Positions 3,057 to 56,999 of a DNA stretch of 64,000 bases are shown here, one piece after another (within the stretch, counting starts at the first letter, position 1; every line of letters starts with the position of its first letter). Both the position numbers and the translations under genes were made by a program. Origin of the DNA: Phycisphaerales bacterium (GTDB lineage Bacteria > Planctomycetota > Phycisphaerae > Phycisphaerales > UBA1924); assembly GCA_023382935.1 (NCBI GenBank), contig JAHDXL010000002.1, positions 386,692 to 450,691 of the forward strand, in the 5' to 3' direction. The notes beneath the pieces were generated by a model. That model ran no database searches. It had not been told where the DNA came from and worked only from the letters and a program-made list of their open reading frames with translations.

Positions 3057-3089
3057 ACATCGAGGATGCAGGTGAAGCGAAGACTCGAC

Positions 3090-24866: not shown

Positions 24867-26129
24867 ATGGGGCTTTCGGATCATGGTGAGTGCAGCAGCC
24901 AGCCGGTGATCGGCTGGGGGCTTTCGGGTCATCAGGACCCCGACTTGGCCTGCCAGCACGTCATCGAGCAGGTGCGCTCGCAGATCCGTTCATGCGCAGC
25001 GAGTTTCGGCTTCGTCTTCTTCAGCGGCGATTTGCAGCGCCACGCGGGGCTGGTCGCCTCGCGCCTGTGCGAAGCATTGCAGACCGATGGGCTGATCGGC
25101 TGCTCCTCTCGCGCAGTCATCGGCGGGCGATCGACGCTTTTCGAACGGAGCGGGCTGGCGGTGCTGGCGGGCGCCATGCCGGGGGTTCTGGCGCGGGCGT
25201 TCGCGTTCGGGGCCAATGACCTGCCGCCGGACGACAACGACATCGACGCGGTGCTGGACGAACGTGTCCGGATGGAGGCGCACCGCGCGACTTTCGTGCT
25301 GGCCGACCCTTCGACGTTGGCGGTCCGTCGACCGATCGAGGCGGTCGCCCGCGCCACACCGGGCGGACGTCTGATGGGCGCCTTGACGACCAGCGAAAAG
25401 GGGCACCCGGTGCACCTGCTCGCAGGCGCGCAAACGCGGGAGGGTGGGCTGGTCGGGCTTTCCATTGGTGGGCCGGTGCGGGTGGATGTGGTGATCGCCC
25501 AGGGGGCAAGGCCGGTGGGAACGCCGCTGGTGGTCACCAAGGCTCATCGAAACCTGATCCGGCAACTGGGGGGGCGTCCGGCGATCCAGGTGCTTCGCGA
25601 AGTGGCCCACACCTTCAAGCCGCGAGATCGCAACCTGCTTGGGCCCGGGTTGTTTCTTGGGGTGGCGGTGGACGAGTATCGCGACCGGTTCGGACGTGGA
25701 GACTTTGCGATCAGCCGCATCGTCGGCGGCGACGAGGCGACCGGCTCGATCGCGATCGACTCGGAGATCAGGGCCGGGCGGACCGTGCAGGTGCATCTGC
25801 TCGATCCGGAGTCGGCCCGCAGTGACATGGCCCTGCTGCTCGACGCCCAGAAACTGCACGATCGCCCGATCGGCGCACTGCTGCTCAGCGACGCGGCCCG
25901 AGGCCCGGCCTTGTTCGGCGACGAATGGAGCGACGCGATCGCCGTCGCACGGGCCTTTGACCGGGATCAGTCCGGCACCGACGCGGCCAAGATCGGGTAC
26001 GAGATCGCCCAGCAGGCCGGTCCGGTGCCCTTGGCCGGTTGCTTCGCCTCGGCGGAAATCGGGCCGGGCGGAGGCGGTGTGCGGGCCCATGGCCTGGCGG
26101 CGTGCCTGGCGCTTTTCAGGGAAGGGTGA
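24867..26129 (+). CDS. FIST domain signal-sensing protein
   Basis: Protein of 420 aa built of FIST-N (about 30-215) and FIST-C (about 220-400). FIST proteins are soluble sensory modules thought to bind small ligands such as amino acids and often work with histidine kinases or diguanylate cyclases. Recognisable parts are FGFVFFSGDLQRHA, DGLIGCSSRAVIGG, the GGPVRVDVVIAQGARPVG strand pair and GCFASAEIGPGGGGVRAHG near the end, which fits the FIST-C hallmark. No kinase or cyclase is adjacent; this one stands alone. The start follows a -10-like box by 8 nt and no SD is seen. Confidence 0.88.
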   Translation: MGLSDHGECSSQPVIGWGLSGHQDPDLACQHVIEQVRSQIRSCAASFGFVFFSGDLQRHAGLVASRLCEALQTDGLIGCSSRAVIGGRSTLFERSGLAVLAGAMPGVLARAFAFGANDLPPDDNDIDAVLDERVRMEAHRATFVLADPSTLAVRRPIEAVARATPGGRLMGALTTSEKGHPVHLLAGAQTREGGLVGLSIGGPVRVDVVIAQGARPVGTPLVVTKAHRNLIRQLGGRPAIQVLREVAHTFKPRDRNLLGPGLFLGVAVDEYRDRFGRGDFAISRIVGGDEATGSIAIDSEIRAGRTVQVHLLDPESARSDMALLLDAQKLHDRPIGALLLSDAARGPALFGDEWSDAIAVARAFDRDQSGTDAAKIGYEIAQQAGPVPLAGCFASAEIGPGGGGVRAHGLAACLALFREG

Positions 26130-26391
26130 ACAGAAGGGCGGCGACAGGCAGGGATTGCCGGGTGTGGCGTCCAACTCTGCGTGCCACGAGTTCGGGTTCG
26201 CGCCTCCGTGCCCGACGGGTTGGACTCACCAACTTTCGAACACGAAAGTCGGAAGTGCACCAGTTTCCGGGATCTCGGCGAATCAGGCGTGGAACGCCGG
26301 AAACAGGATCCGGACTCGCCATTTCGCGGGATGCCGCTACGATGTCGGTCCCACAAACTGGCACGTTGGAACCCACTGCAATGGGGGATTC

Positions 26392-27801
26392 ATGCTCGGA
26401 CGCATTTTCAAGGCCTACGACATCCGCGGCGTGTACCCGGACCTGCTGAACGACCAGATGGCTTGGCAGATCGGGTATGGGTGCGGGAAGTTCCTGCTTG
26501 ACGACGCGGCGGCGGCGGGCGAACGCACGCCGATGATGCGCAACATCGTGGTCGGGCGTGACATGCGCAAGAGCAGCCCGAAACTGTCGGACCAGTTGAT
26601 CGCGGGGATGCGGGCCTTTGGCGCCAGCGTGATTGACATTGGGCTGGTGGACACCCCGATGGTGTACTTTGCGATCAACTACCTGGACTGTGCGGGCGGG
26701 GTGATGGTGACGGCCAGTCACAACCCGCCGCAGTACAACGGATTCAAGGTGTCGAAGCGGAACGCCAAGCCGGTGGGGGAGGCGACGGGTCTGGCGGAGG
26801 TGCGCAAGCACGCGGCGATGGTGGATCGGGCATTGGAGCCGGCGGCCGGCACCTCGGTCGAGGCTCGTGACCTGTGGGAGCCGTATCGCAAGCACGTCAT
26901 GTCGTTCCTCGATCTGGGTGGGAAGGAACTGAAGATCGTGGTCGATGCGAGCAACGGTTCGGCCGGCACGATGCTGCCCAAACTGTTCGGAAAGAACGGC
27001 AAGAACGTGCCGGGCCTGCAGATCATCGAGTTGAACTTCGATAACAGCAAGGGAGAGTTCGCGCACGAGCCAAACCCGCTGGTGGCGGCCAACCTGGTGC
27101 AGTTGCAGGAGGCCGTCATCAAGCATGGGGCGCATGTGGGAGTGTGCTACGACGGGGACGCAGACCGGTGCGTGGTGATTGACGAGAAGGGCGGAATCGT
27201 GGGAGGGGACCAGTTGACGGCGCTGCTGGGGGCGTGGTTCCTCAAGAGGCGTCCCGGGTCGGCGGTGGTGTATGACCTGCGTTCGACGCACGCGGTGGCC
27301 GAGGACGTGAGAAAGGCCGGGGGCAAGCCGGTGCGCGGGCGCGTCGGGCATGTGTTCATGAAGGCGCTGATGAGCGAGCACAAGGCCGTGTTCGGTGGTG
27401 AGTTGTCGGGGCACTTCTATTTTTCCAGGAACTTCAACGCCGACTCGGGCGTGATCGCGATGGCGACGGTGCTGAGCGTGCTGGCCGACGCGGGGCAGCC
27501 GATGAGCAGGTTGATCCGGCCTATTGCGCGGTATCAGCAGTCGGGGGAGATCAACTTCGAGATCGAGGAGAAGGATGCAGCGCTGGCGGCCCTGAAGGAC
27601 GCCTTCGGCGATCGCGGCGACATCGACGAACTCGACGGCGTGACGATTGACTGCTTCGAGAGCGAAGGCTGGTGGTGCAACGTGCGCAAGAGCAACACCG
27701 AACCGTTGCTGAGGCTGAACACCGAGGCGAGGGACCGCGAAACGCTCGAGCGTGCGCTGGCGGAGATCGCGCCGATGCTGGGGACGAGAGTGGCACACTG
27801 A
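26392..27801 (+). CDS. Phosphomannomutase/phosphoglucomutase
   Basis: Alpha-D-phosphohexomutase of 469 aa that interconverts hexose-1- and hexose-6-phosphate for polysaccharide and nucleotide-sugar synthesis. The phosphoserine loop is VTASHNPPQYNG, with catalytic Ser109. The Mg-binding loop is DGDADRC, the sugar-specificity loop is GGELSGHFYF, and the phosphate-binding loop is KSNTEPLLRLN. The GGELSGH form and overall length fit the AlgC-type dual-specificity phosphomannomutase/phosphoglucomutase group. The ATG at 26392 is preceded by GGGGGA. The frame is open far upstream because of GC bias, but residues before this start are not conserved in style. Confidence 0.93.
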   Translation: MLGRIFKAYDIRGVYPDLLNDQMAWQIGYGCGKFLLDDAAAAGERTPMMRNIVVGRDMRKSSPKLSDQLIAGMRAFGASVIDIGLVDTPMVYFAINYLDCAGGVMVTASHNPPQYNGFKVSKRNAKPVGEATGLAEVRKHAAMVDRALEPAAGTSVEARDLWEPYRKHVMSFLDLGGKELKIVVDASNGSAGTMLPKLFGKNGKNVPGLQIIELNFDNSKGEFAHEPNPLVAANLVQLQEAVIKHGAHVGVCYDGDADRCVVIDEKGGIVGGDQLTALLGAWFLKRRPGSAVVYDLRSTHAVAEDVRKAGGKPVRGRVGHVFMKALMSEHKAVFGGELSGHFYFSRNFNADSGVIAMATVLSVLADAGQPMSRLIRPIARYQQSGEINFEIEEKDAALAALKDAFGDRGDIDELDGVTIDCFESEGWWCNVRKSNTEPLLRLNTEARDRETLERALAEIAPMLGTRVAH

Positions 27802-27892
27802 AGGACGCTGAGCCGCAGGGCTTGTGAAGCCGGGATCGCTGTGCCGAGGAGAAGTACCCGGAACCAGACTCCCGCAGAACCGAGGGAACGCG

Positions 27893-28678
27893 ATGAGATT
27901 GCTCGAAGGCAAGGTCGGATTGATCGTGGGCGTGGCCAATGACCGCTCGTATGCGTGGCACATCGCCAAATCGATGACCGAACAGGGGGCGCGATGCGCC
28001 TTCACGCATCTGCCCGGCGACAAGAACGAGCGTCGCACGGCGCGGGCGCTCGAGCAGTTGGGCATCTCCAATCCGTGGCTGGCGCCGCTGGACGCGTCGA
28101 GCGACGCGGAACTGGACGCGGTGTTCGCCAAGTATCAGAAGGACCACGATCGGCTGGACTTCCTGGTGCACTCGATCGCGTTTGCCGATCGCGATTGGCT
28201 GCAGCCGGGCATGTTCACGGGTACTCCCCGGCAGGCGTATCTCTCGGCGATCGACGTGAGCGCGTACACGCTGGCGGCAATGGCGCACCGGGCGAGGGAG
28301 CAGATGGCCGGCAACGGCGGCGGGTCGATCATGGCGATGAGTTACTACGGGGCGGAGAAGGTGATTCCCGGTTACAACGTCATGGGCGTGGCCAAGGCGG
28401 CGCTGGAGTGCACGGCTCGATACCTGGCCAGCGAACTGGGCGAGCAGAAGATCCGTGTGAACGTGATCTCCGGCGGATATCTGCGCACCCTAGCCAGTTC
28501 GGCAGTGGGCGGGACGGACAAGATGGGCGAGTGGAACCTGCAGCGGGCGCCGCTGCGCCGCAACGTCGAGGGCGAAGACGTGGGGGGGACGGCGGCGTGG
28601 CTGGCGTCAGACTTGTCGCGAGGTGTCACCGGCGAGACAATCTACGTCGACTGCGGGGTCAACATCATCGGGCTGTGA
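27893..28678 (+). CDS. fabI: Enoyl-[acyl-carrier-protein] reductase
   Basis: SDR-superfamily enzyme of 261 aa that performs the last reduction of each fatty-acid elongation cycle using NAD(P)H. The FabI-specific nucleotide-binding start is VGVANDRSYAWHIAKSM, which has the G-x5-S spacing unlike classic SDRs. The catalytic pair is Tyr161 and Lys168 (YNVMGVAK, Y-x6-K), with the second conserved Tyr in MSYYGAEKV. RVNVISGGYLRTLAS follows; the usual AGPI/K there is SGGY. The C terminus GETIYVDCGVNIIGL is typical. GAGGGAA precedes the ATG. It is the target family of triclosan and isoniazid-type inhibitors. Confidence 0.94.
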   Translation: MRLLEGKVGLIVGVANDRSYAWHIAKSMTEQGARCAFTHLPGDKNERRTARALEQLGISNPWLAPLDASSDAELDAVFAKYQKDHDRLDFLVHSIAFADRDWLQPGMFTGTPRQAYLSAIDVSAYTLAAMAHRAREQMAGNGGGSIMAMSYYGAEKVIPGYNVMGVAKAALECTARYLASELGEQKIRVNVISGGYLRTLASSAVGGTDKMGEWNLQRAPLRRNVEGEDVGGTAAWLASDLSRGVTGETIYVDCGVNIIGL

Positions 28679-29133: not shown

Positions 29134-30624
29134 TCACGCTGCGTCGCTGGTGATGAGGTTGAGGCTGATCGTGCCGGGTAGCCCACGGCACTCGGCGCGG
29201 CGGATGCGGGTCAGTTCGCGAATGACGCGGTGCAGCACAACGCTGTCCTGATCGCGGCCGACGAGCCAGCCCGAATAGCGCAGGTCTTCGAGCAAGTCAT
29301 CGCGCAGGAAGTCGAGTCGCTCGTAGGGGTGTTGAGCGGCCAGCAGGCAGATGCCCGAGGCGATCCGTCCGAGTGTGAGGGGGCCGCCGCCGCCCAGGGT
29401 GATTTCGGACTGCACGAAACCAGCCTGGTCGATGACGATCTGGTCGCTGCAGGCTCGCACGAGCGGATCGGCTTCGAGCAGCGCGGCTATGGCGGCGTCA
29501 TCGTCGTAGTTGGCGAATCGCACGGCGGCCAGTCGCAGCCACGTCTCCGGACGATTCCGTTGGAAAGGAGCGACGGCTTCGAGCAAGGTGCGGCGTTCGG
29601 CCATGGGAATGCGAGCGCCGGGCGTGACCAGCCACGCACTCACGACCGAAGCGGCCGTGCGTTCGAGCACGGATGCATCATGCGGATCACGGGCCGACAG
29701 GGTCTGGGCGAGCCGGCGCATGGCGCGGACGCGAAATGCCCCGGGGTCGATGTGCGACGGGTCTTCCTCGCCGTCGAGCGGCAGGCGTCCGAACAAGCGA
29801 TCCGTCAGCGTAAGACGTGAAGGGAAGCGAGCCTGCGCGGCCGCAGCCACCAACAAGGAAGTGACCAGGGGATCGTGTGCGTCGGCGCCCGGGAGCAACG
29901 AGATGGTAAGTTGAGCGGGGTCGATGTGATGCGGGAACACGCTGGCGAAGGAGAGCGGACGAGGAGTCGACCAGTCGAACCATGTGGCCGGCTGGTCATC
30001 ATGTTCGGGAATGGCGGCCACTCCACCGCGCATGCCGTCGTGCCGGAACACCAGATCGAGGCGTGCGGTCGAATCGGGCGAAGCGCGCGGCTCGTCGATG
30101 GTGCGCCAGGAGACGGGCACAGCGGCCTCATGCGTCGTGATGGAGCGTGCCATGTCGGGCGGGGCGATGATGCCGATGCGAAGGGGCGAGGCCAGTTCGG
30201 GGCGGCGGTCGAGGGCGCGGGCGACCGCTTCGCGCAGTTGGCGGCCTGAACGCGGCTCGAAACTCCAGGCGGCGACGGCCAAGTCGGCGATGACGGCGTG
30301 GGTGGCCACCCCGAAGCGGAGCAGGGGAGCCAGTCGCCGCTGTGTGAGCGGAGAGATACGCAGTCCGGGCTTCGAGGCGCTCACGGGGAGCGGGACCGAG
30401 GCCTCCAGGAGATCAAGCCAGCCGCGCCGCCAAGCGGCGTAGACACCGGCGATGACCCACAAACCGACCGGCAGTCCGAGAAGCGGGAACGCCAGCCATG
30501 ACGCGCCGAGCATGTATCCAGTGGCGACCACCAGCGCCGAGCAGGCAAGGACGGCGGCGGCCGGTGAAAGACGAACATCGGTCAGCGCCGGTCCGGAACG
30601 AAGGGGTCGGTGCATGGTGGTCAT
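29134..30624 (-). CDS. Hypothetical membrane protein
   Basis: Protein of about 496 aa. Residues about 17-60 form two adjacent membrane segments (LSPAAAVLACSALVVATGYM and WLAFPLLGLPVGLWVIAGVY). The rest is a large soluble domain of alternating helices and strands with several HD and HDD clusters (RHDGMRGG, PEHDDQPATWFDW) but no catalytic motif that I recognise. The C-terminal part has helical repeats (WLRLAAVRFANYDDDAAIAA) that could be degenerate TPR-like. The start at 30624 (MTTMHRPLRS) is preferred over the longer frame since upstream residues are Cys/Pro-rich and not membrane-like. Function unknown. Confidence 0.65.
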   Translation of the reverse strand: MTTMHRPLRSGPALTDVRLSPAAAVLACSALVVATGYMLGASWLAFPLLGLPVGLWVIAGVYAAWRRGWLDLLEASVPLPVSASKPGLRISPLTQRRLAPLLRFGVATHAVIADLAVAAWSFEPRSGRQLREAVARALDRRPELASPLRIGIIAPPDMARSITTHEAAVPVSWRTIDEPRASPDSTARLDLVFRHDGMRGGVAAIPEHDDQPATWFDWSTPRPLSFASVFPHHIDPAQLTISLLPGADAHDPLVTSLLVAAAAQARFPSRLTLTDRLFGRLPLDGEEDPSHIDPGAFRVRAMRRLAQTLSARDPHDASVLERTAASVVSAWLVTPGARIPMAERRTLLEAVAPFQRNRPETWLRLAAVRFANYDDDAAIAALLEADPLVRACSDQIVIDQAGFVQSEITLGGGGPLTLGRIASGICLLAAQHPYERLDFLRDDLLEDLRYSGWLVGRDQDSVVLHRVIRELTRIRRAECRGLPGTISLNLITSDAA

Positions 30625-30779
30625 GGGACGAGACAGATCGACCAGCGCGTGCGCGTGGATCAGGGCGGGCGGGCAAGCCCCCGAGGGCTTCACACGAAGT
30701 GCGCAGGTCGTACCGAGGCGGGCCAACTTCTCGGACGCGCGGCGTGAACTGAAACAGCATCCTGTCCGAACGTCTTTCC

Positions 30780-31202
30780 CTACAGCAGTCGGGCGATGCG
30801 ACGCCCGAGGTCGGAGGCCTGTTCGGGATCAGCCGGGTGGGTCGTCCAGCGCATGGAGAGACCGGCACCGCCACGTCGTCCTTGGAAGCGAGGGACGATG
30901 TGGAAGTGGACGTGCGGCACCACCTGCCCGGCGTCGGCGCCGTTGTTGAGAAGGACGTTGTATGCCTGGGCGCCGGTGGCTTTGCAGATGGCCCGGGCCA
31001 GGCGGGGCAGTGCCCTCCCCAGCGCCGCGGCCGAGTTGTCGGACAAGGCATCGAGGGATTCGGCCGGCTCCTTGGGAATGAGGAGGGTGTGCCCCTCGCT
31101 GAGGGGGTTGATGTCGAGGATGGCGATGCATTTCTCGTCCTCGTACACCCTTTGAGCGGGGATTTCGTTTCGGATGATCTTGCTGAAGATGGAGTCGCTC
31201 AT
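30780..31202 (-). CDS. HIT family nucleotide-binding protein
   Basis: Histidine-triad protein of 140 aa. HIT proteins hydrolyse phosphoramidate or AMP-linked substrates such as adenosine 5'-phosphoramidate. The triad is PHVHFHIVPR (HxHxH). SIFSKIIRNEIPAQRVYEDE and GHTLLIPKEP are standard N-terminal family elements. The C-terminal helix includes ASDLGRRIARLL. It is divergent from mutL with 53 bp between start codons. A TATCAT hexamer lies 4 nt upstream of its ATG and no SD is visible, so it may be leaderless. Confidence 0.92.
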   Translation of the reverse strand: MSDSIFSKIIRNEIPAQRVYEDEKCIAILDINPLSEGHTLLIPKEPAESLDALSDNSAAALGRALPRLARAICKATGAQAYNVLLNNGADAGQVVPHVHFHIVPRFQGRRGGAGLSMRWTTHPADPEQASDLGRRIARLL

Positions 31203-31242
31203 GGGGGATGATATTCGGACGGGAAGCCGGACCCACCTCCCG

Positions 31243-31248
31243 TACAAT
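31243..31248 (+). promoter_or_regulatory. -10-like hexamer TACAAT placing mutL start at +1
   Basis: TACAAT ends 7 nt before the mutL ATG (CGGCGGC between). No SD motif can fit with a normal leader, so a leaderless transcript is the simplest reading. Confidence 0.45.
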
Positions 31249-31255
31249 CGGCGGC

Positions 31256-33157
31256 ATGACCTCCGATGCCGGGCTCGAATCGCGACCCCAGATCCGGAAA
31301 CTCCCGGCGCTGCTGATCAACCAGATCGCTGCCGGCGAGGTCATCGAGCGCCCCGCCAGCGTGGTCAAGGAGTTGGTCGAGAACTCGCTGGACGCCGGTG
31401 CAACGCGGATCGAGGTGGACCTCGAGGGAGGGGGCATTGAACTGGTCAGGGTGCGCGACGACGGAGGCGGCATCCCGCGCGAAGAACTGGCGCTGGCGCT
31501 CAGCCCGCACGCGACGAGCAAGATACGCCAAGCCGAGGACCTGGACCGGATCGTGACCATGGGCTTTCGCGGGGAGGCGCTGGCGTCGATCACCTCGGTG
31601 GCGCGGGTACGGGTGGTGTCGAAGCCGCGCGGTCAGGCCGAGGCGTGGGAGATCTGCGGCCAGGGCGAGGACATTTCCGAACCGCGGCCGGCGGCTGGGG
31701 CGCCCGGAACACTCATCGAGGTGCGCAACCTGTTCTTCAACACGCCGGCGCGGCGGAAGTTTCTGCGCACGGCGAGCACGGAGCAGGGAAGGTGCATGGA
31801 GTGGCTGACCGACCTGGCGATTGCACACCCGAGCGTGGGATTCATGGTGCGCTGCGACGGGCGTGTGCGGCTGGAGACCGGCCCCGACCAGGAACCGCGA
31901 CAGCGAGTACTCGCGCTGCTCGGCGAAGAACTGGAGGGCGAACTGATCGAAGTGCGGGCCGACCGGTTCGAGGACGCTCGCGGGTTGACGCTGTGGGGGC
32001 TGATTGGGCGGCCGGCCATTGCGAGGGCGACGCCCAGGGCCCAGCATGTGTTCCTCAACGGGCGGGCAGTGCGTGACCGCACGATCCAGCACGCACTGAA
32101 GGAGAGTTACCGCGGGCTGGTTGAGCCGGGGCGGCATCCCACGGCCGTGCTGCTGATCGAGATGTCGCCGACGGCGGTGGACGTCAACGTGCATCCAGCC
32201 AAACTGGAGGTGCGTTTCCGCGATCAGTCGGCGGTGCACCAGGCCGTGTTGCATGCGGTGCGAGAGGCGCTGCGGCAGAGCGACCTGACGCCGCCGGTGA
32301 GCGGGCGACGGTATGAGCCTGGGGCCCGACTTCCCGGCGCAGGATATTCACGTCCGCGGGATGGTGGAGAGGGATCGCCGGGCGCGCGGTATGAAGAACA
32401 CGTTCGCCCCGAGGCGCTGGTGGATTTTCTCAAGCGTGGACCGTTGCCGAATCCGTCGGCGATTCGGGCATCGCTGGATCAACCATTGGTGGCCAGCGGC
32501 CCGCTGGAAGCGATGGGTTTTGGCGACGGTCGCACATATGCCGAGCCACAACCCGATGAGGCGCTGCCTTCACCACGGCGGGCCGACCGCGTATTGCAGA
32601 TTCACAACAGTTTCCTGGTAACGCAGGACGAGAGCGGGATCGTCATCATCGATCAACATGCGCTGCACGAGCGGGTGATGTTCGAGCGGCTGGCCGCCCG
32701 GGTCGGGCGCGAGCCGCTGGAGAGTCAGCAGTTGCTCGCCCCGGTGAGCGTGCATGCGACGCGGCGTCAGATGGAACGCGTCGAGGAACTGGCCGCGCTG
32801 CTGGGGCGTTGCGGCATTGTGCTGCGGCCGATGGGGCCGCGCACGCTCGGCGTGGAGTCGTTTCCCTCGCTGCTGTTCCAGCGCGGGGTCGACCCGGTGG
32901 AGTTCATGACCGAACTGCTGGAAAAGGCCGAGTCGGAGGAGTTTGCTCCCTCGGACGAATCGGCGCTGCACGAGGTGCTGGACATGATGGCCTGCAAGGC
33001 GGCCATCAAGGCGGGCGACCGCATGAGCGAGCAGGAAATGGAGGAGTTGCTTCGGCTGCGCGAGAGCGTGGAGCGGAGTTCGGCATGCCCGCACGGGCGC
33101 CCGACCAGCGTGCGGCTGTCGATCGAGCAGTTGGAGAAGTTGTTTCACCGCAGGTGA
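31256..33157 (+). CDS. mutL: DNA mismatch repair protein MutL
   Basis: GHKL ATPase of 633 aa that couples MutS mismatch recognition to strand cutting. ATPase motifs: ASVVKELVENSLDAGAT (motif I), VRDDGGGIP (motif II) and ATSKI...MGFRGEAL (motif III). NVHPAKLEVRF marks the end of the transducer domain. The C-terminal dimer domain contains DQHALHERVMFERL, matching the DQHA(x)2E(x)4E metal-binding endonuclease motif, with MACKAAIKAGD and CPHGRPTSVRL as later metal-site motifs. It is therefore an endonuclease-active MutL, as in bacteria lacking MutH. The ATG at 31256 is chosen because a -10-like box lies 7 nt before it. Confidence 0.96.
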   Translation: MTSDAGLESRPQIRKLPALLINQIAAGEVIERPASVVKELVENSLDAGATRIEVDLEGGGIELVRVRDDGGGIPREELALALSPHATSKIRQAEDLDRIVTMGFRGEALASITSVARVRVVSKPRGQAEAWEICGQGEDISEPRPAAGAPGTLIEVRNLFFNTPARRKFLRTASTEQGRCMEWLTDLAIAHPSVGFMVRCDGRVRLETGPDQEPRQRVLALLGEELEGELIEVRADRFEDARGLTLWGLIGRPAIARATPRAQHVFLNGRAVRDRTIQHALKESYRGLVEPGRHPTAVLLIEMSPTAVDVNVHPAKLEVRFRDQSAVHQAVLHAVREALRQSDLTPPVSGRRYEPGARLPGAGYSRPRDGGEGSPGARYEEHVRPEALVDFLKRGPLPNPSAIRASLDQPLVASGPLEAMGFGDGRTYAEPQPDEALPSPRRADRVLQIHNSFLVTQDESGIVIIDQHALHERVMFERLAARVGREPLESQQLLAPVSVHATRRQMERVEELAALLGRCGIVLRPMGPRTLGVESFPSLLFQRGVDPVEFMTELLEKAESEEFAPSDESALHEVLDMMACKAAIKAGDRMSEQEMEELLRLRESVERSSACPHGRPTSVRLSIEQLEKLFHRR

Positions 33158-33206
33158 GCAAGTCGAGGGCGGTTTCCGAACGTCGGGTCATTGTGCCTGC
33201 ACTCGC

Positions 33207-33380
33207 CCATTCGCGCAGGCGTCTGGCGGATGCGGCGACGTTGTCGCGTCCGGCGACTTCGAGCGTGGTGGGCCCGTGAAGGCCGATCTCGAGCAGTGCG
33301 TGGACGATGCGTTCGATGCCGACGACGCCATCGCCGAGCGGGATGATGCCCATGCCGCAGCCGAAGACCCGGCCGCGCTT
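33207..33380 (-). pseudogene. Relic of a TIM-barrel sugar phosphate isomerase/epimerase C-terminus
   Basis: The minus-strand frame reads RVFGCGMGIIPLGDGVVGIE followed by RIVHALLEIGLHGPTTLEVA and a SARRLREWA helix. This is the ending style of xylose-isomerase-like (AP endonuclease 2 superfamily) sugar isomerases: G-rich turn, DGxVD-like strand, helix, LEV/E strand. Nothing upstream (beyond 33380) continues the barrel in any frame, and the frame has no own stop but runs on antisense into mutL. I therefore read it as a short leftover. It abuts the ASKHA relic exactly at 33378-33380. Identification is by eye from about 58 residues. Confidence 0.45.
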
Positions 33381-34343
33381 GGGGTGAGGCCATTCAGGAC
33401 CGCCTTCAACGGACATCGCTTCGAATCGCCTTCGCCTGCTTGGGCCGGGATTGAAGGACTGTCGCCCGACGTGCACTTGCTGCCAGGTGCGTCGGCCTAC
33501 GTCGGCGTGGACAACGTGGCGGGTGTCGATGCGGTAAACCTGCCGCTCTCACCCGGACCGGTTCTTTTTCTGGACTCGGCACCAATCGGGAAATGGTGCT
33601 CTGTGACGGGCGCCGGCTGACCGTATGCGCCAAGGCCGCAGGTCCGGCGTTCGAAGGCGTAGGCCAGAGTTGCGGCGTGCGAACCAGCCGTCGGGCCATC
33701 AGGGGGGGTGCGTGGCCTGTGAGCCACCGGTCGTCACTGGAGCGACGTTGCGCGATGGGGAAGCCGAGCCCGTGGGCGTGTGCGGGACGGCATACGTCGA
33801 TCTGCTGGCGGGCGGCCGGGCGGGCGGGTTGCTTGACGCTCTGGCTGCGTGACCTCTGAGGGGCAGTGGCGCTGGAGCCACGCACTGCGGGAGTCCAGAC
33901 GCGGCCGGCTCGAGATTCGCTTGTCGCCCCGGCGCGGGGAGTGGAAGGACCATCGTCATGCGCGTCACGGAGCGCGACATCGCGGCGGTGCTCCAAGCCA
34001 AGGCCGCAATCAGGGACGGTATCGAAGTGCTGCTCGAGCGATCAGGGCTGCGCGGCATCGACTGCACACGATCTGCCTGGCCAGCGGCTTCGGCACACGG
34101 ATCAACGTTTCAAACGCAGTCGCAATCGGCCTGCTGCCGCAGGTGGACCCGCTGCGAGTCGTGCCGTTGGGAAACACGTCGCTGGCCGGCGTGGCGGCGG
34201 TCGTGCTGGATGCCGAGCGGCTGGAACGGATGGCTCGACTGGCGGGCCGGATCGAGCCGCACACGCTCGGGCACGATGACGACCTCGAGGAGCGATGCAT
34301 CGAGTCCCTGCGTCTGCCGCATGCGATCGGGAGATCAGCCTGA
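33378..34343 (+). pseudogene. Decayed ASKHA-domain (RACo-like, DUF4445) gene with several frameshifts
   Basis: The family's C-terminal ASKHA domain can be reassembled from three plus-strand frames. Frame A (33378-33575) gives ALGVRPFRTAF, DVHLLPGASAYVGVDNVAGV and PGPVLFLD. Loss of one base near 33576 moves to frame B: GTNREMVL, CAKAAGPAFEGVGQSCGVRT (LDIGTNGE and AAGPAFEG are family hallmarks). A shift in the G7 run 33703-33709 moves to frame C: EPVGVCGTAYVDLLAGGRAGGLLDALA, then a stop at 33850. VTERDIAAVLQAKAAIRDGI follows at 33961. Another shift near 34065 restores frame A: CLASGFGTRINVSNAVAIGL to the end. The N-terminal part, normally with a 2Fe-2S ferredoxin domain, is missing. Intact relatives reactivate corrinoid proteins or are uncharacterised ferredoxin-ASKHA proteins. 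Confidence 0.85.
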
Positions 34344-34378
34344 TCGACGCGGCGCAAGACCAACGGTGTGTGGCCGCG

Positions 34379-34418
34379 ACAAAAAGAACCGAGCCCCGGC
34401 CGTAAGGCCGAGGCTCGG
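34379..34418 (-). terminator. Rho-independent terminator of the metzincin gene
   Basis: On the minus strand CCGAGCC-tc-GGCC-TTAC-GGCC-gg-GGCTCGG folds into a stem of about 13 bp interrupted by one 2-nt mismatch. It is followed by TTCTTTTT. It lies 24-63 nt past the stop at 34442. Confidence 0.8.
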
Positions 34419-34441
34419 AATGTCGATCAATCAGGCTCGCA

Positions 34442-36709
34442 TCAGTTGGTGACGTTGACCGTCGACCAGTTGGAGTAGGCGGAGAAGATGGTTCCGTTCT
34501 TCGCGCGCACGCGGTAGCGGAAGGTGCCGGCGCCGGGCGTGTCGTCACGGGTCACCACGTTGGCCGCGGTGTTGGCTACGACGCCCTGGTTGACCCACGA
34601 GCCGCTCACACTCTGCTGGCGCTGGAGTTGGAAGCCCGTCTCGTTGTTGCTGTTGTCAGTCCAGGTGCAGCGAGCGGTGCCTGCGCCGAGGTTCGAGGCA
34701 GCCATGTTTGTCGGGGCCGCGGGCGGCGTCGGATCGGCGACGGTGACGCTCTGGTAGGCCGACCACGGACCGGTGCCGGCACTGTTCTTGGCGCGGATGC
34801 GGTAGCGCCAGGTGCCATAGCCGCAGTTGTCGACGTACTCAGTAGTGTTTGCGGGCAGGTTGCTGGCCACGGTGGTGAGGTTGGTCCATACTCCGTCCAC
34901 CTTCTGCTGACGCTGAACATCCCATGCGGTTTCGTTGGGCAGATCGGTCCAGGCGACGCGGGCCGTGGCGTTGCCGAGGTCGGTCACGGTGGGCTTGGCG
35001 GGCTTGACGGGAATGGTCTCACCGCCGGTAATCGTGACGGTGACCGAATCGCTGTCACTCATACCACCGGAGTCGGTGGCCGATGCCGAGATGGTATGAA
35101 TGCCGACCGACAGACCCGAGTAGTTGAGGGGGTTGCCCGAGCCGAACACTCCGTCGAGGTTGGAGGACCACACGGTGTTGGCGCCGATGTCCCCGTCTTC
35201 GGGGTCGCTGGCCAGGACGGAGAAGAACAGAGTCGCGCCTTGGGTGGCAACCGTGCCGTTGACCGGCGTGGTGATCACCACGCTGGGGGGCGTGTTGGGC
35301 GGGGGACCGTGATCGATGCATCCTCGAGAGGCGGCGTAGTTCTTGATGCCGGTGGCCGAAACGCCGAAGTCGGGCAGGCCAAGCCCGGAGCACCCGCCCA
35401 GGCCGGAGCACATGATGCGGCAGGCCGACTGCCCGTCGCAGTGCTGTGCGCTGAAGTTGTGCCCCATCTCGTGGGCGGTGAGGGAAATGCGGCTGTTGTA
35501 GTTGCTGGTGAAACGGGACTGGCTGAGCCCGAAACCGTTGTTCGTGCACACGGCGCTGAGCCAGGCGATGCCGATTACGCTTCCGTTGATGCTGCGCCCG
35601 GTCATCAGGTGTGCCAGGTCACGATGCACGTTGGTGTGGTTGGCCAGCCAATACGAGCGGAATTGATCGAGGAGCGTGCTGGGGTCATTTGTGGTGTAGG
35701 GGTTGCTGGCGCTGGACGTGCGGACGATGATCTGCGTGATCACGAAGGTGACGTCGCAGTCGCGCTCGTAGATCGTGTTGATGCCGTTCTGGATGTTTTG
35801 AATGTCGGCGATGGTGTTCGCCTGGGAAGAGCCGTTGAGTTGATAGAACTGATAGTCGGCGTCATAGGCGACCTCGGCCGTGTGGATGGTGGTGCCTCGC
35901 TGGCCGCCAGTCTGCATGTCGATCTGGTTGAACCCGTCGTTCTCGGCGTGATCAAGAGCGCCGCCGCAGGTGTGCCCGGTCGCGCGGGTGGCCAGCCCGG
36001 GGTACACCACGTACACGTCGGCGGGAACGCCCGGAATCACGTCGGCCAGGGGCTGGATGTACCAGCCGTCGTCCGGATCATCGTTGAAGATGATCTGGGC
36101 GGTCATGTGCTCACCGATGGACGCGGACACGAGACTGCCGGGAATTTCGACCACGCGCCCGCGATAGGTCTGCTCGATCGGAGCGGGAACTTCAACCAAG
36201 GTGCCGCTCCCGTCGTCGACAAGCACACGGAAATCGGGACTGCGGACGCTGGAGGGCCTCAGTTCAAGCGTGTACACGCCGCCGTTGAGGACCACCGGGA
36301 TGAGCATGGCCTGGCGTGTGTTGCCAGGAACGGTCAGCAGTTCGAGCGTGTGAATGTCCACGCCGAGGTCGTTGCCGATGAAGGTGTCCGTCGACGCGAT
36401 GTCGGCCACGATCGCGCTGGGGAACTGGCCGAGCAGGGAGCGAGCCGCGCCAACGCCGACCCCCACGCGGAGCAATTGGGCGCCTGACTCATCGGTGCCG
36501 AGCACCGACCCGTCGATGGCCGACAGAGCGGCCTCGCGGGCGGGTTCTGAGGCTTCGGCTCCCCAGACGACGACCAGAGTTCCGGCGCCAAAGTCGGTGT
36601 TGAGCCGGGCCAGGGCGTTGCCGTCGATCGGCTGGGGCCCGGAGGCCAGACCAGCGCCGCAGGTCAGCGCGAGCAACACGCCGCCTGCCACATTGCCAAG
36701 ATGACTCAT
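34442..36709 (-). CDS. Secreted metzincin (reprolysin-like) metalloprotease with Big and FN3 domains
   Basis: Exported zinc protease of 755 aa. Signal peptide 1-22. A pro-region precedes the catalytic domain (about 245-460). The zinc site is HEMGHNFSAQH (His413, Glu414, His417, His423), the HExxHxxxxxH metzincin form, followed by a Cys-rich stretch (CDGQSACRIMCSGLGGC) whose Met fits the Met-turn. Residues about 465-560 form a bacterial Ig-like domain (PPSVVITTPVNGTV, then HTISASATDSGG). Two fibronectin type III modules end the protein (both with ARVAWTD/ARCTWTD strands and YRIRAKNSAG/YRVRAKNG). ACGGAG lies 6-7 nt before the ATG. No dockerin tail, unlike the other secreted hydrolases here. Confidence 0.92.
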   Translation of the reverse strand: MSHLGNVAGGVLLALTCGAGLASGPQPIDGNALARLNTDFGAGTLVVVWGAEASEPAREAALSAIDGSVLGTDESGAQLLRVGVGVGAARSLLGQFPSAIVADIASTDTFIGNDLGVDIHTLELLTVPGNTRQAMLIPVVLNGGVYTLELRPSSVRSPDFRVLVDDGSGTLVEVPAPIEQTYRGRVVEIPGSLVSASIGEHMTAQIIFNDDPDDGWYIQPLADVIPGVPADVYVVYPGLATRATGHTCGGALDHAENDGFNQIDMQTGGQRGTTIHTAEVAYDADYQFYQLNGSSQANTIADIQNIQNGINTIYERDCDVTFVITQIIVRTSSASNPYTTNDPSTLLDQFRSYWLANHTNVHRDLAHLMTGRSINGSVIGIAWLSAVCTNNGFGLSQSRFTSNYNSRISLTAHEMGHNFSAQHCDGQSACRIMCSGLGGCSGLGLPDFGVSATGIKNYAASRGCIDHGPPPNTPPSVVITTPVNGTVATQGATLFFSVLASDPEDGDIGANTVWSSNLDGVFGSGNPLNYSGLSVGIHTISASATDSGGMSDSDSVTVTITGGETIPVKPAKPTVTDLGNATARVAWTDLPNETAWDVQRQQKVDGVWTNLTTVASNLPANTTEYVDNCGYGTWRYRIRAKNSAGTGPWSAYQSVTVADPTPPAAPTNMAASNLGAGTARCTWTDNSNNETGFQLQRQQSVSGSWVNQGVVANTAANVVTRDDTPGAGTFRYRVRAKNGTIFSAYSNWSTVNVTN

Positions 36710-37052
36710 CGCAGTCTCCGTACTGAAATCCGAACCCTGTTTCCACCGGCGGGGGAATTGCTCGAAAACCGAGCACCCTACCCACAGGCGAGTCGCCTGG
36801 GTTCTAGAGGCAACCCCTCCGTTGAGACCCCTCACAACGCCTTTGGGAAAACGCACCGAGACGAACCAAACACCGCAAGTGCTGTGGCTTCAGCGGGATA
36901 GGCTGACAGCCCCCTTCCTAGAATCAATAAAATACCTAGATGACCATGTCACCGCAAGCCCCAATTTGTTGAGACTGAGATAGGGAAATAGCCGCATCTG
37001 ACGAGATATCACCTACCCAAAGTGACCGGGTCGGGGGATCTCAATGGCTCGA
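36710..37052 (-). promoter_or_regulatory. 343-bp leader and promoter region of the metzincin gene
   Basis: Read on the minus strand, TTGCGG (36952-36957) and TATTTT (36929-36934) are spaced by 17 bp in a locally AT-rich stretch, a plausible sigma-70-type promoter. This gives a leader of about 210 nt. Near the gene two hairpins follow each other: CAGGCG/CGCCTG with a 3-nt loop (36785-36799) and TGCTCG/CGAGCA with a 5-nt loop (36759-36775). No known riboswitch consensus was recognised. Confidence 0.35.
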
Positions 37053-38243
37053 TCATGGCGCCGGGGGCACTGCCAAATCCATCCAGACCGGGAAATGGTC
37101 CGTATCGCCCTCTTCGATCAGGCGCCAGACGCCCGAAGCCAGGGGTGTCAGTGAGGCCGAGGGCAGGATGTAGTCGACTCTCAACCCGAAACGGGCAGTG
37201 TCATCGGGGTCGAGCCCTTCGATCGAGATATCGCTGGCGGGCACGGTGCCGCTGGAGATGCGCGGGTTGGAGAGCAGGAAGCGGTCTATCGGATCGCGAT
37301 ACGAGTCGCCCTCATCCGGGTCGGCGTTCAGGTCGCCGAGAATGACGAACGCCGAGCCGGCGGGCAGCCCGCCGCGGACCTCCGCGTCGTCGACGAGGTA
37401 GTCGGCGTTGGCGATGTAGTCGGCCCAGAAGCGGATTTCGTCATGGTTGCGCCTCTTGTTGCGCCCTTCGGGCCCGTCAAAGGCGGGTGGTGTCGGGTGG
37501 CTGCACAGGAAGTGAACGACGGCCCCGTTGGGAAGTCTGACAGGCACATCCCAATGGCTCTTGGAACTGAGCCGGAAGAGGTCGAGCACCTCTTCGGAGT
37601 AGAACATGCTTCCATCCGCGTGGCGCGGGAGTTCCGGATCGGGCATCGACTTCCACGGAAAGAGCCGGAAGGTGCGGATCGCTGTTTCTTCGATGGCCAG
37701 GCGATCATCGACCAGCAGGGCCATGCCGTACTGCCCCGGAAAAGTGCCGTAGCCCCAGCAGTCGTTGCCGTAGGTGCGGGCACGTTCGTTCGGTGCGGCG
37801 CGTGTGCTGTCGGCGCGGAGGGGGTCGGGCAGCGGGAATGCTGACTGTGCTTCGCCGTTCTGATCGAGGTCGAAGCCGCTGGGCATGCCGGTGTTGGGGC
37901 GCGAGGTGTAAATGCGATAGGTGATGGGGGTCAGTCCCTCCTTCTGCGGCACGCTCAGGTAGTTCTTGACGAAGTGCTCAGCCGTCCAGGCGCCGGTCTC
38001 GGGGCGTGAGAAGTCGTTGGGGGCCGCGAAGGCGATTTCATTCAGGAGGATGACGTTGGGACCGATCCGCTGGATCGTCTCGGCGAGGCGGCGCATGCGC
38101 GGGTTGTGTGCATCGGCCACGTCGTCGGGGCGGACGTCTTCCAGGTTGAACGTGGCGACGCGGATGCCCAGGGTCTGGGATTCCTGTGCCAAGGCGCCCG
38201 TTGCCATCACGGCTGCACAAAATGCTCCAGCAAACTGCCGCAT
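37053..38243 (-). CDS. Exported endonuclease/exonuclease/phosphatase-family protein
   Basis: Protein of 396 aa with a Sec signal (1-19, cut near GALAQ). The EEP fold is shown by VATFNLEDV at the start, NVILLNEIAF carrying the metal-binding Glu, FLCSHPTPP, the FVILGDLNADPDEGD strand with catalytic Asp/Asn, GLRVDYILPS and the final DTDHFPVWMDL with the catalytic His. All active-site elements are therefore present. Family members are nucleases, lipid or inositol phosphatases; secreted bacterial ones with this length are often annotated only as EEP proteins. AAGGAGA lies 5 nt before the ATG. It lies between the metzincin gene and tRNA-Arg. Confidence 0.9.
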   Translation of the reverse strand: MRQFAGAFCAAVMATGALAQESQTLGIRVATFNLEDVRPDDVADAHNPRMRRLAETIQRIGPNVILLNEIAFAAPNDFSRPETGAWTAEHFVKNYLSVPQKEGLTPITYRIYTSRPNTGMPSGFDLDQNGEAQSAFPLPDPLRADSTRAAPNERARTYGNDCWGYGTFPGQYGMALLVDDRLAIEETAIRTFRLFPWKSMPDPELPRHADGSMFYSEEVLDLFRLSSKSHWDVPVRLPNGAVVHFLCSHPTPPAFDGPEGRNKRRNHDEIRFWADYIANADYLVDDAEVRGGLPAGSAFVILGDLNADPDEGDSYRDPIDRFLLSNPRISSGTVPASDISIEGLDPDDTARFGLRVDYILPSASLTPLASGVWRLIEEGDTDHFPVWMDLAVPPAP

Positions 38244-38344
38244 TGAAGTCTCCTTGCGTACCCGAGCAGCATAGCCGGAAAGCAGCCGGTCGGTCGGGCG
38301 TGGTTGACATCCGTGGCCGCGGAGCGAGACTTCAGGCGGTCAGT

Positions 38345-38418
38345 GTCCCGGTAGCTCAGTTGGATAGAGCAGCGGACTTCTAATCCGCAGGTCGTGCGTT
38401 CGAATCGCACCCGGGATG
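38345..38418 (+). tRNA. tRNA-Arg (anticodon TCT)
   Basis: A 74-nt cloverleaf. Acceptor GTCCCGG/CCGGGAT (with one G-T pair at the end), D arm with GTAGCTCAGTTGG, anticodon stem GCGGA/TCCGC with loop CTTCTAA giving TCT, variable loop, T arm GTGCG-TTCGAAT-CGCAC, discriminator G. CCA is not encoded. It decodes AGA, and possibly AGG. It lies head-on to the M64 peptidase gene, whose stop is 9 bp away. Confidence 0.97.
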
Positions 38419-38426
38419 TTCGACGG

Positions 38427-39833
38427 CTACAGCCCCGGGCAGGGCTGGGCCACCAGTTGCAGGTAGCGCTGCACGTCGAAGAAATCGATCACCCCGTCGG
38501 AGTTCAGGTCGGCCGACGGGTCGCGTGCGGCGAAGTCGTCGAGGAAGTCCTGCACATCGAAGAAGTCAACCAGCCCGTCGCCATTTCGGTCGGCGGGAGG
38601 GATCGCGACATGGATGACCCATTGGCGTGTTTCGCTCATGCGGGCGGTGCGGGCCTGTTCGTCGCGCACCAGCGGCGTGTTGTCGACCACGGTCACCGAA
38701 AGCACGTACACGCCCGGCTGCAACTGGAGCGGACACAGCGCCAGTTCCGGCTCGGACAACTGCACGGGCGTGTTGTCCACTCGCCATGTGATGTCCAGGT
38801 CGTGCCCGAGAGGCTCGACCGGCGTGACGAACACCAAGTCGTTCGGGCCAAGCACCGTGTCCATAGGCGTCGAGGCGTCGATCGGGTCGACGTGGTCGTA
38901 GAAACTGAGGATGAGGGTTTCGGCGCTGGGGAGATTGAACGGCCGACCGAGGCTGCGCATCATCGAGTTGTTGCTCGGGCGATAGATCCCTCGCAGGCTG
39001 TAGTAGGCGCCTTCGTAGGTTCCGACAGGGTTGTCGAAGTCGGGCCGCGAGACGCTGAGCCAGTCGGCCCACTTGGTGCCGAGCGTGGCCATCTGGTCGG
39101 CGTTGTAGATGGAGACGTTGCGTTCAGCCGGCTCCGGCCCGGTGTAGGTTGTGGGCCCGCCGTAGTCATACTCGTCGGCCAAGTCGCCGATGGAGTGCCC
39201 GAACTCGTGGATCATGACCTGTGGAGCGGCGGCGTTGCCACCCGAGCAGGTGGCCAGGTTGCTGGAGGTGTAGCCGGCGCCGCCATACTTGGTGGAGTTG
39301 GCCAGTGCGGCGACCTGGTCGACCTGCGGGGCCGAGCGTGCGGCCAGCAGTGCCTTCCCGACGCTGACGCACAGAAGTCGCTCGATGCCGGAGCACCAGA
39401 AGGCCATGTCGAGCGCCGTGTTGCGTGACACGCCCTGATTGGGGTCGTTGTCCACTCCCGAGTCAGTCGAAACGACATCGACGCGGTGGACGTTGAAGAA
39501 CGAGGCATAGGTGGCGAATGGCTCGATTGCGAACATGTCGTTCAGCGCGTTCATGGTGTGGGAGGCATAAAGCCCCAACTGCTCGGCTTGATACCCGTCG
39601 CCCACGAATACCAGATCAATTCGGTTGTCGCTGGGGCCCGAGTCGATGATGGTCTGCCAGTTCCAGGTGGAGCGGGGCATGCCGGGATCGACGGGCATGG
39701 GCATGAGCAACCGACCACCGGTGAGTGACCCGTCCGTTGCCAGGTAGTCGTAATAGACCATCTCCTGACGCAAAACAGGCTCGGGTGGTCCGAAAATGGA
39801 AAGGATCAGAGCGGTAGTCAGGATCGAACTCAT
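38427..39833 (-). CDS. Secreted M64-family peptidase with GC-type dockerin tail
   Basis: Protein of 468 aa. A hydrophobic signal covers residues 1-15. The peptidase M64 (IgA peptidase-like) domain shows RIDLVFVGDGY at 71-81, FAIEPFATYASFFNVHRVDV, DMAFWCSGIERLLCV and the zinc site MIHEFGHSIGDLADEY (His209, Glu210, His213). A beta domain follows (about 330-410). The last 60 residues contain two dockerin-like calcium repeats (DRNGDGLVDFFDVQDFLDDF and DLNSDGVIDFFDVQRYLQ), ending CPGL. The start at 39833 has GGGGAGAAGG upstream. It is divergent from the sigma factor gene. The dockerin tail is shared with proteins at 49938 and 61418. Confidence 0.92.
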   Translation of the reverse strand: MSSILTTALILSIFGPPEPVLRQEMVYYDYLATDGSLTGGRLLMPMPVDPGMPRSTWNWQTIIDSGPSDNRIDLVFVGDGYQAEQLGLYASHTMNALNDMFAIEPFATYASFFNVHRVDVVSTDSGVDNDPNQGVSRNTALDMAFWCSGIERLLCVSVGKALLAARSAPQVDQVAALANSTKYGGAGYTSSNLATCSGGNAAAPQVMIHEFGHSIGDLADEYDYGGPTTYTGPEPAERNVSIYNADQMATLGTKWADWLSVSRPDFDNPVGTYEGAYYSLRGIYRPSNNSMMRSLGRPFNLPSAETLILSFYDHVDPIDASTPMDTVLGPNDLVFVTPVEPLGHDLDITWRVDNTPVQLSEPELALCPLQLQPGVYVLSVTVVDNTPLVRDEQARTARMSETRQWVIHVAIPPADRNGDGLVDFFDVQDFLDDFAARDPSADLNSDGVIDFFDVQRYLQLVAQPCPGL

Positions 39834-55912: not shown

Positions 55913-56114
55913 TGAAGGCTCGGGCTCGATACCCAAGGGCCGTCCCATAACGCATCCGACTTCCGTTTATGCACCCTGCTCGGGTGTCAGTTTCTTCGCC
56001 TTGCACGCGGAAACTCATGGAACATAAGAGGTTGCGCGGTATGGTGGCAAAGGGGCCACCCATCCCGGGCAGGCTCCGGAATGTTCAAGACGCCCAAGAT
56101 CAGAGGAGCCTGAG

Positions 56115-56936
56115 ATGCTGCCTGTGCTGCTGTTGTCCGCCGTTGTCATGGGTTCGCCGGTGAGCACCAACGGGTTGCTTGCCCGATCGGTCCAGTTGGA
56201 CGAGCGTGCCCCGGTCGTTGAGAACCAAGTCATCTTCATCACGCCGGAGTTGTACACCCCGGCAGAGGAAGTTCGGGGGCATGTCGTCGGGCAGATTCCG
56301 TCGCAGGTGGCGTTGCGATCGGCGGCCGAGCGTGCCCGCCTGGGCGCCGGGCCAGAGGCTCCGCAGTGGATCGTCATTCGCTTTCGCGACGGACTGTTCG
56401 CGATTGATCCTTTCCTGCAACTGCCCGACGTGACGCCGGAGACGGCCAGGCAGTTGTTCAAGTCGATGAAGTACGGCACGGGCGCTCCGGTGGCCACGCT
56501 GGGCACCGATCGCTCGCTGTTCAACCGGCAGCGCATCGAAGCGACGGAGGATCTGTTCCGGGCGCTCGAACACGAGCGCGTCGAGTGGCTCAAGCAGAAC
56601 CGCTATGTCCAGGCCGTGCGGACGTGGTCGGGTGACCCTGACCATGCTTCGCAGCAGAGCCGGGCGCCGGGGCGCGACGCGCTGCCCGAGGACTTGCCCC
56701 GCACACGCCCGATCGAGGAAGTGCGTGCTCCGGCGGGCGGGGTGATGCTGGTGCAGGGCGATCAGCCCGTGCGCGTGTCGCTGCCCGACCTGGGCGTGTC
56801 GGCGGACGTGCGCCAGCGTGTGGCGGCCAACGGGGGCTATCTGAACCGCCCCGCCGAGGCCAGGAAGGAGCAGGCGACCAGAGAGGCGACCGTTGCCCGG
56901 GCCGAAAACACGCCGGGGGCACCTGCCAAGCAGTGA
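56115..56936 (+). CDS. Secreted hypothetical protein
   Basis: Protein of 273 aa. The first 13 residues (MLPVLLLSAVVMG) form a short hydrophobic signal. The rest is hydrophilic, with VIFITPELYTPAEEVRGHVV, QWIVIRFRDGLFAIDPFLQL and a helical stretch ending EWLKQNRYVQAVRTWS. The last 100 residues are rich in Pro, Ala, Arg and Glu and probably disordered. No family was recognised. GAGGAG lies 7-8 nt before the ATG. It follows the FGE-like gene by about 200 bp and precedes xseA. Confidence 0.65.
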   Translation: MLPVLLLSAVVMGSPVSTNGLLARSVQLDERAPVVENQVIFITPELYTPAEEVRGHVVGQIPSQVALRSAAERARLGAGPEAPQWIVIRFRDGLFAIDPFLQLPDVTPETARQLFKSMKYGTGAPVATLGTDRSLFNRQRIEATEDLFRALEHERVEWLKQNRYVQAVRTWSGDPDHASQQSRAPGRDALPEDLPRTRPIEEVRAPAGGVMLVQGDQPVRVSLPDLGVSADVRQRVAANGGYLNRPAEARKEQATREATVARAENTPGAPAKQ

Positions 56937-56999
56937 ACTCTCTGTGATTCTCCCTCCCGCGGCAGGACATCGGCCGGGCGACGTGCGATACTGCACGTC

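Follow-up and report, generated by a model that had tools for sequence, protein, structure and literature searches.

A 5′-truncated, frameshifted DUF4445/RACo-like pseudogene within a ~1.2-kb segment seen in a single Phycisphaerales genome

The window analyzed here, a stretch of 64,000 nucleotides from a Phycisphaerales bacterium (assembly GCA_023382935.1, contig JAHDXL010000002.1), contains a mutL gene (31208..33157, plus strand), an open frame with Pfam MutL_C, DNA_mis_repair and HATPase matches, and, to the right of it, a gene for an M12B-type (reprolysin-like) metalloprotease (34442..36856, minus strand), an open frame with Pfam Reprolysin matches and a weak fn3 match. The MutL protein is 88–89% identical and the metalloprotease 80% identical to its counterpart in the congener G002, the only genome among those examined in which mutL and the M12B gene are arranged in the same way. 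The synteny blocks on the two sides (30152–33160 and 34439–38519) are collinear with that genome, where they lie 112 bp apart, and the distance from the mutL stop to the M12B protease stop is 1284 bp here as against 118 bp in G002. The synteny break and the stop-to-stop distance delimit an extra segment without counterpart in G002 (outer limits 33161..34438), the GC content of which is 0.68, compared with 0.66 for the window. A terminator-like hairpin located 3′ of the M12B gene (34389–34418, minus strand; 13 pairs, 11 of them GC) lies at the right end of this segment; a GC-rich hairpin that appears comparable by eye is found at the same place in G002 (L038, about 3070–3097). Elsewhere in the window, three long open frames on the minus strand (26116–28131, 29134–30726 and 56100–58283) showed no Pfam match at the thresholds used, and the real genes in these regions may differ; part of the frame at 29134–30726 matches G002 at the equivalent place with 76% identity.

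The extra segment harbors, on its plus strand (33378..34343), the remnant of a gene of the DUF4445/RACo-RamA family (PF17651 + PF14574), which comprises the end of the Raco_middle domain and the RACo_C_ter domain and corresponds to ~310 residues. The Pfam profile RACo_C_ter (PF14574), which represents the C-terminal ASKHA domain, matched a single locus in the genome at E ≤ 0.001, located at about 33575–34325 of the window, and did so in three ordered pieces (profile positions 8–50, 67–162 and 163–252; E values 1.8e-11, 2.2e-7 and 6.2e-16), so that the conserved C-terminal segments of the family occur in the remnant in their usual order. In addition, the DNA was aligned by frameshift-tolerant dynamic programming to a profile of 29 full-length relatives, hand-picked from 104 extracted proteins. 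This alignment spans 33357 to 34319, through to the end of the profile, with a score of 394, whereas the reverse strand scored 30 and dinucleotide shuffles gave a mean of 28 and a maximum of 42 (n = 30). Frameshifts were identified near 33575, 33702–33712 and 34062, together with an in-frame TGA at 33850, and hence there is no single open reading frame; one of the shifts lies at a run of seven G residues (33702–33708), and the last frame terminates at a TGA at 34341–34343. The frame around 33850–33955 is uncertain, and a compensating pair of shifts could stand in for the TGA at 33850. A sequence-only reading of this DNA had described hallmark segments of a DUF4445/RACo-like protein in order but in three different frames, separated by at least three frameshifts, and had proposed a frameshift-aware comparison with DUF4445 proteins; the PF14574 pieces and the significant alignment across the joined frames bear this out. 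The shift positions given in that reading were right to within a few bases, except that its G7 run (33703–33709) lay one base too far to the right. At the level of sequence comparison, the stretch at ~33378–34343 is therefore confirmed as a DUF4445/RACo-like (ASKHA) pseudogene.

The alignment covers positions 263–579 of the 579-residue stop-to-stop frame of L005, an intact relative from the same order, and thus runs from about residue 228 to the end of a 544-residue protein that contains Fer2 (18–84) and Raco_middle (129–289) domains in addition to RACo_C_ter. L005 matches the PDB entries 3zyy and 4c1n (E 4.6e-80 and 2.6e-78), which carry the depositors' name iron-sulfur cluster binding protein and which we take to be the RACo protein. 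Since the first ~20 aligned bases of the remnant overlap strong isomerase homology on the opposite strand, its true start is placed at ~33378–33390. The remnant thus begins at about residue 228–235 (L005 numbering) and retains the C-terminal ~57% of a DUF4445/RACo-like protein; it lacks the N-terminal [2Fe-2S] ferredoxin domain as well as the beginning of Raco_middle, a loss that amounts to about two fifths of the gene. According to the literature, intact proteins of this family use ATP to return a corrinoid from its inactive Co(II) state to Co(I), and activating enzymes of this kind are described as reducing corrinoids in an ATP-dependent manner (PMC6739815). With its ferredoxin domain gone and with shifts, a stop and changed invariant residues, the remnant is probably not a working member of the family.

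Upstream of the DUF4445 remnant, between it and mutL, the opposite strand encodes the end of an AP_endonuc_2/sugar-isomerase-like protein (33198..33398, minus strand). Three genomes of the order, G052, G045 and G198, contain frames of ~300 residues whose ends share 56–66% identity with this fragment (E 4e-24 to 3e-20), the corresponding tblastn identities being 55–65%. In place of a complete TIM barrel of ~280–300 amino acids, only the C-terminal ~67 residues are present, and about three quarters of the gene (its 5′ part) is gone; at the point where its relatives terminate, the frame lacks a stop and continues to 33006, inside mutL. The fragment itself matches PF01261 (AP_endonuc_2, xylose-isomerase-like TIM barrel) weakly and under the cut-off (E 0.0015), and the two full-length relatives scanned, L178 and L177, match it above the cut-off. 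The two 5′-truncated remnants meet head to head at 33376..33392, the isomerase homology reaching 33395–33431 on the minus strand and the DUF4445 homology starting from ~33378–33390 on the plus strand, with essentially no sequence between them. Since the window thus contains a second broken gene, the earlier statement that every other gene in it is intact does not hold.

The DUF4445 remnant has also changed at positions that are otherwise strictly conserved. A conserved-column test was performed with the 37 intact rows of the 38-row tree set that contains the pseudogene, and 10 of the 46 columns invariant in these relatives are substituted in the pseudogene; the intact relatives show a median of 0 departures, with a worst case of 6 of 52 (L125). 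At a 95% conservation threshold, the pseudogene (14 of 66) and L125 (14 of 74) depart about equally often, and at a 90% threshold the values are 22 of 88 and 22 of 92, respectively. A tree of 94 rows, built by a quick method from 93 of the 104 extracted proteins and the pseudogene, gives the latter the longest end branch (1.93 vs. a median of 0.61). The rows left out of this tree were the duplicates L064 and L050 and nine others (L161, L070, L085, L055, L075, L163, L077, L118 and L071), which are mostly short or located at contig ends; L163 is a 686-residue frame and a second copy from one genome. These observations bear on the possibility that the gene is in reality intact and merely appears broken through indel errors, or that DNA of another organism was chimerically joined to this contig during assembly. 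One of the shifts does lie at the G7 run, and the genome is assembled in 35 contigs. However, indel errors can neither remove about two fifths of one gene and three quarters of its neighbor nor substitute invariant residues, and, moreover, collinearity with G002 holds on both sides of the segment, the genes there are open and the GC content of the segment is close to that of the window. An error of sequencing or assembly is thus very improbable; the truncation and the substitutions indicate that the gene is not a product of indel errors, and the earlier suspicion of a genuinely decayed gene stands on this point.

The third positions of the last pseudogene piece still have a GC content of 0.84, and two open frames of 164 codons each (33849–34343 and 33958–34452) overlap the end of the remnant, features that could be expected if the remnant retained some function, such as the production of a peptide from a late frame or service as a spacer beside the M12B terminator. 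Such a role is hardly credible, because the first of these frames contains only the last ~86 residues of DUF4445 and the second only ~35, the remainder being out-of-frame translation, because invariant residues are changed, and because the stretch is missing from G002. A scan of 33000–34600 for promoters of the sigma-70-like type found no site. Programmed frameshifting was ruled out by argument, given the several shifts, the missing 5′ part and the changed invariant residues. The DUF4445 remnant therefore probably yields no functional product.

The distribution of the two genes was analyzed in a set of 163 genomes of the family, including the present one, of which 112 have a completeness of 90% or more and a contamination of no more than 5%. 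Neither PF14574 nor the isomerase fragment (at E ≤ 1e-4) was found in any of the 162 other genomes. Among 400 genomes of the order, PF14574 is present in 23, namely the genome under study and 22 genomes in two other families (f5 and f6). A looser search with the isomerase (E ≤ 0.01, 100 relatives) gave three strong matches, all of them in f5 and f6, and weak matches in 16 further genomes (E 1.3e-4 or worse), some of which belong to the family of the present genome. Other families of the order accordingly possess full-length relatives of both genes. The three isomerase-bearing genomes G052, G045 and G198 show no PF14574 match, and, within the flanks examined, no isomerase gene adjoins DUF4445 among the best 80 of 586 confirmed DUF4445 loci or in the other neighborhoods compared. 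A DNA-level search with 33158–34441 against 61 genomes of the family revealed no convincing match outside the segment itself; matches at E ≤ 0.01 were obtained in 33 of the 61 (the present genome included), and these, the segment itself aside, are pieces of ~23–88 bp with E values no better than 5e-5, which were taken as chance. At the mutL–M12B site of the congener G002 there is no trace of either remnant; one 12-bp inverted match in its 112-bp gap (E 0.006) was likewise attributed to chance. In a second congener, G001, a different gene follows mutL, and this genome is therefore uninformative on the site.

The broken gene had been interpreted from the sequence alone as a sign that corrinoid-dependent methyl transfer, or a related redox-activation system, was present in an ancestor and is being lost from this genome. 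Genomic context elsewhere in the order gives this idea some substance. In the two same-order neighborhoods examined (G041 and G056), an intact DUF4445 gene adjoins a DUF1638 gene, and genes for B12-binding, URO-D-type and homocysteine S-methyltransferase (S-methyl_trans) proteins are located within several kilobases. With 341 and 338 bits, the two DUF4445 proteins fall short of the NCBIfam cut-off of 800 for AcsV, and with 95 and 105 they also remain below that of 500 for RamA; hence neither is AcsV or RamA in the strict sense. On the basis of mutant fitness data, a function in B12 reactivation has been inferred for the DUF4445 proteins of diverse bacteria, and DUF1638 has been tied to this function as well (PMC5764234); the adjacency of the two genes in G041 and G056 fits the link described there. 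The RamA-like protein PGA1_c15200 of Phaeobacter inhibens, an inferred B12 reactivator that acts with a DUF1638 protein (PMC5764234), belongs to the same domain family as the remnant. The present genome differs from that case in having no DUF1638 gene and in encoding a methionine synthase (MetH) with its own reactivation domain (PF02965), a domain that P. inhibens is described as lacking (PMC5764234).

Partners for a corrinoid reactivator were sought in the present genome (G000) and in the congeners G001 and G002, all three of which have completeness values of 91–95%. DUF1638 was found in none of the three, and neither was the URO-D family (PF01208), for which 8 of 14 control genomes were positive. 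The URO-D family includes the heme enzyme uroporphyrinogen decarboxylase, and heme synthesis in these three organisms may be absent or may proceed by another route. B12-binding_2 domains in the present genome are confined to MetH and one protein of ~270–288 residues. The ~270-residue protein encoded at G000:C7:54399–55211 (L190:400–1212) combines a B12-binding domain with a weak match to B12-binding_2 and is possibly a B12-dependent regulator; frames of similar size with a weak B12-binding_2 match occur in G001 and G002. A stand-alone S-methyl_trans gene is present in the genome under study and in G001, and absent from G002. Among the families searched (DUF1638, URO-D, B12-binding_2 and S-methyl_trans), no dedicated corrinoid partner for the reactivator thus appears to be encoded. 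A role of the former gene in reactivating the organism's own methionine synthase was set aside because MetH carries PF02965. Cases of methionine synthase without this domain have been described (PMC5764234), and Sinorhizobium meliloti is reported to have both a RamA-like protein and a MetH equipped with the domain (PMC5764234); the presence of PF02965 is therefore no proof that a reactivator would be useless.

Descent from a family ancestor with corrinoid-dependent methyl transfer, of which the present genome would keep the last trace, is consistent with the occurrence of DUF4445 in 22 other genomes of the order and with the gene neighborhoods of G041 and G056. It would nevertheless require losses in every other sampled branch of the family, given that neither DUF4445 nor the isomerase is found in the other 162 members, and it sits poorly with the lack of DUF1638 and URO-D in all three congeneric genomes. 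We consider it unlikely, and the proposal that an ancestral pathway is being lost here is not upheld. Gain and loss at the site itself are not directly polarizable, because G002 is the sole informative congener. One gain followed by decay is favored because the alternative, a loss in each of the other members sampled, involves more events, an argument made by counting rather than by fitting a model, and on this basis we infer gain rather than repeated loss.

The reading that we prefer, with a probability of roughly three in four, is that a foreign segment was gained in the lineage of this bacterium and is now decaying, and that it does not constitute evidence of a working corrinoid pathway being lost. 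The segment, acquired between mutL and the M12B gene, would have brought in no fewer than two genes, one isomerase-like and the other for a DUF4445/RamA-like reactivator. If the two were divergently oriented neighbors, the simplest route to the present structure would be a single deletion that removed both 5′ parts and joined the 3′ ends head to head; this step is conjectural because no relative among those compared has the isomerase beside DUF4445, and two separate pieces may instead have been joined on arrival. The DUF4445 remnant would then have accumulated its frameshifts, at least three in number, its stop and its substitutions at positions that are invariant elsewhere. In the tree, the pseudogene falls in the 38-row set, which consists mainly of Planctomycetota and Verrucomicrobiota, and outside a fork to which 18 of the 23 rows from Phycisphaerales belong, a placement of low confidence given the long branch and the quick method. 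The segment ends show no clear target-site duplication; the direct repeats D1 (33110/34449) and D4 (33117/34421) are imperfect, lie in mutL and in the protease gene or terminator region, and are unconvincing as such duplications.

Pseudogenes arising from failed horizontal transfer are a recognized class (PMC10580986), and the present case resembles them in that the gene is broken in one genome, was not found in close relatives and has full-length copies in more distant lineages. It differs in that two remnants stand head to head and that no donor emerged, the best DUF4445 identity being 44%. A more specific version is offered tentatively and is possible rather than probable: the transfer would have passed from one family of the order to another, reaching a lineage without the partner genes, and one deletion spanning the promoter region that the two divergent genes shared would have beheaded both. 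If this version is true, the locus would provide a clean example of incoming catabolic DNA dying in a lineage of the Planctomycetota.

Taken for itself, the DUF4445 remnant is an ordinary pseudogene. Together with a second 5′-truncated remnant it occupies a segment of ~1.2 kb that was found in no other genome. It is poor ground for annotating a capacity for corrinoid methyl transfer in this bacterium, and it cautions that a single decayed gene is no proof of the loss of a pathway: once the congener and the 162 other genomes of the family are taken into account, the case points to a short-lived gain instead of a loss.
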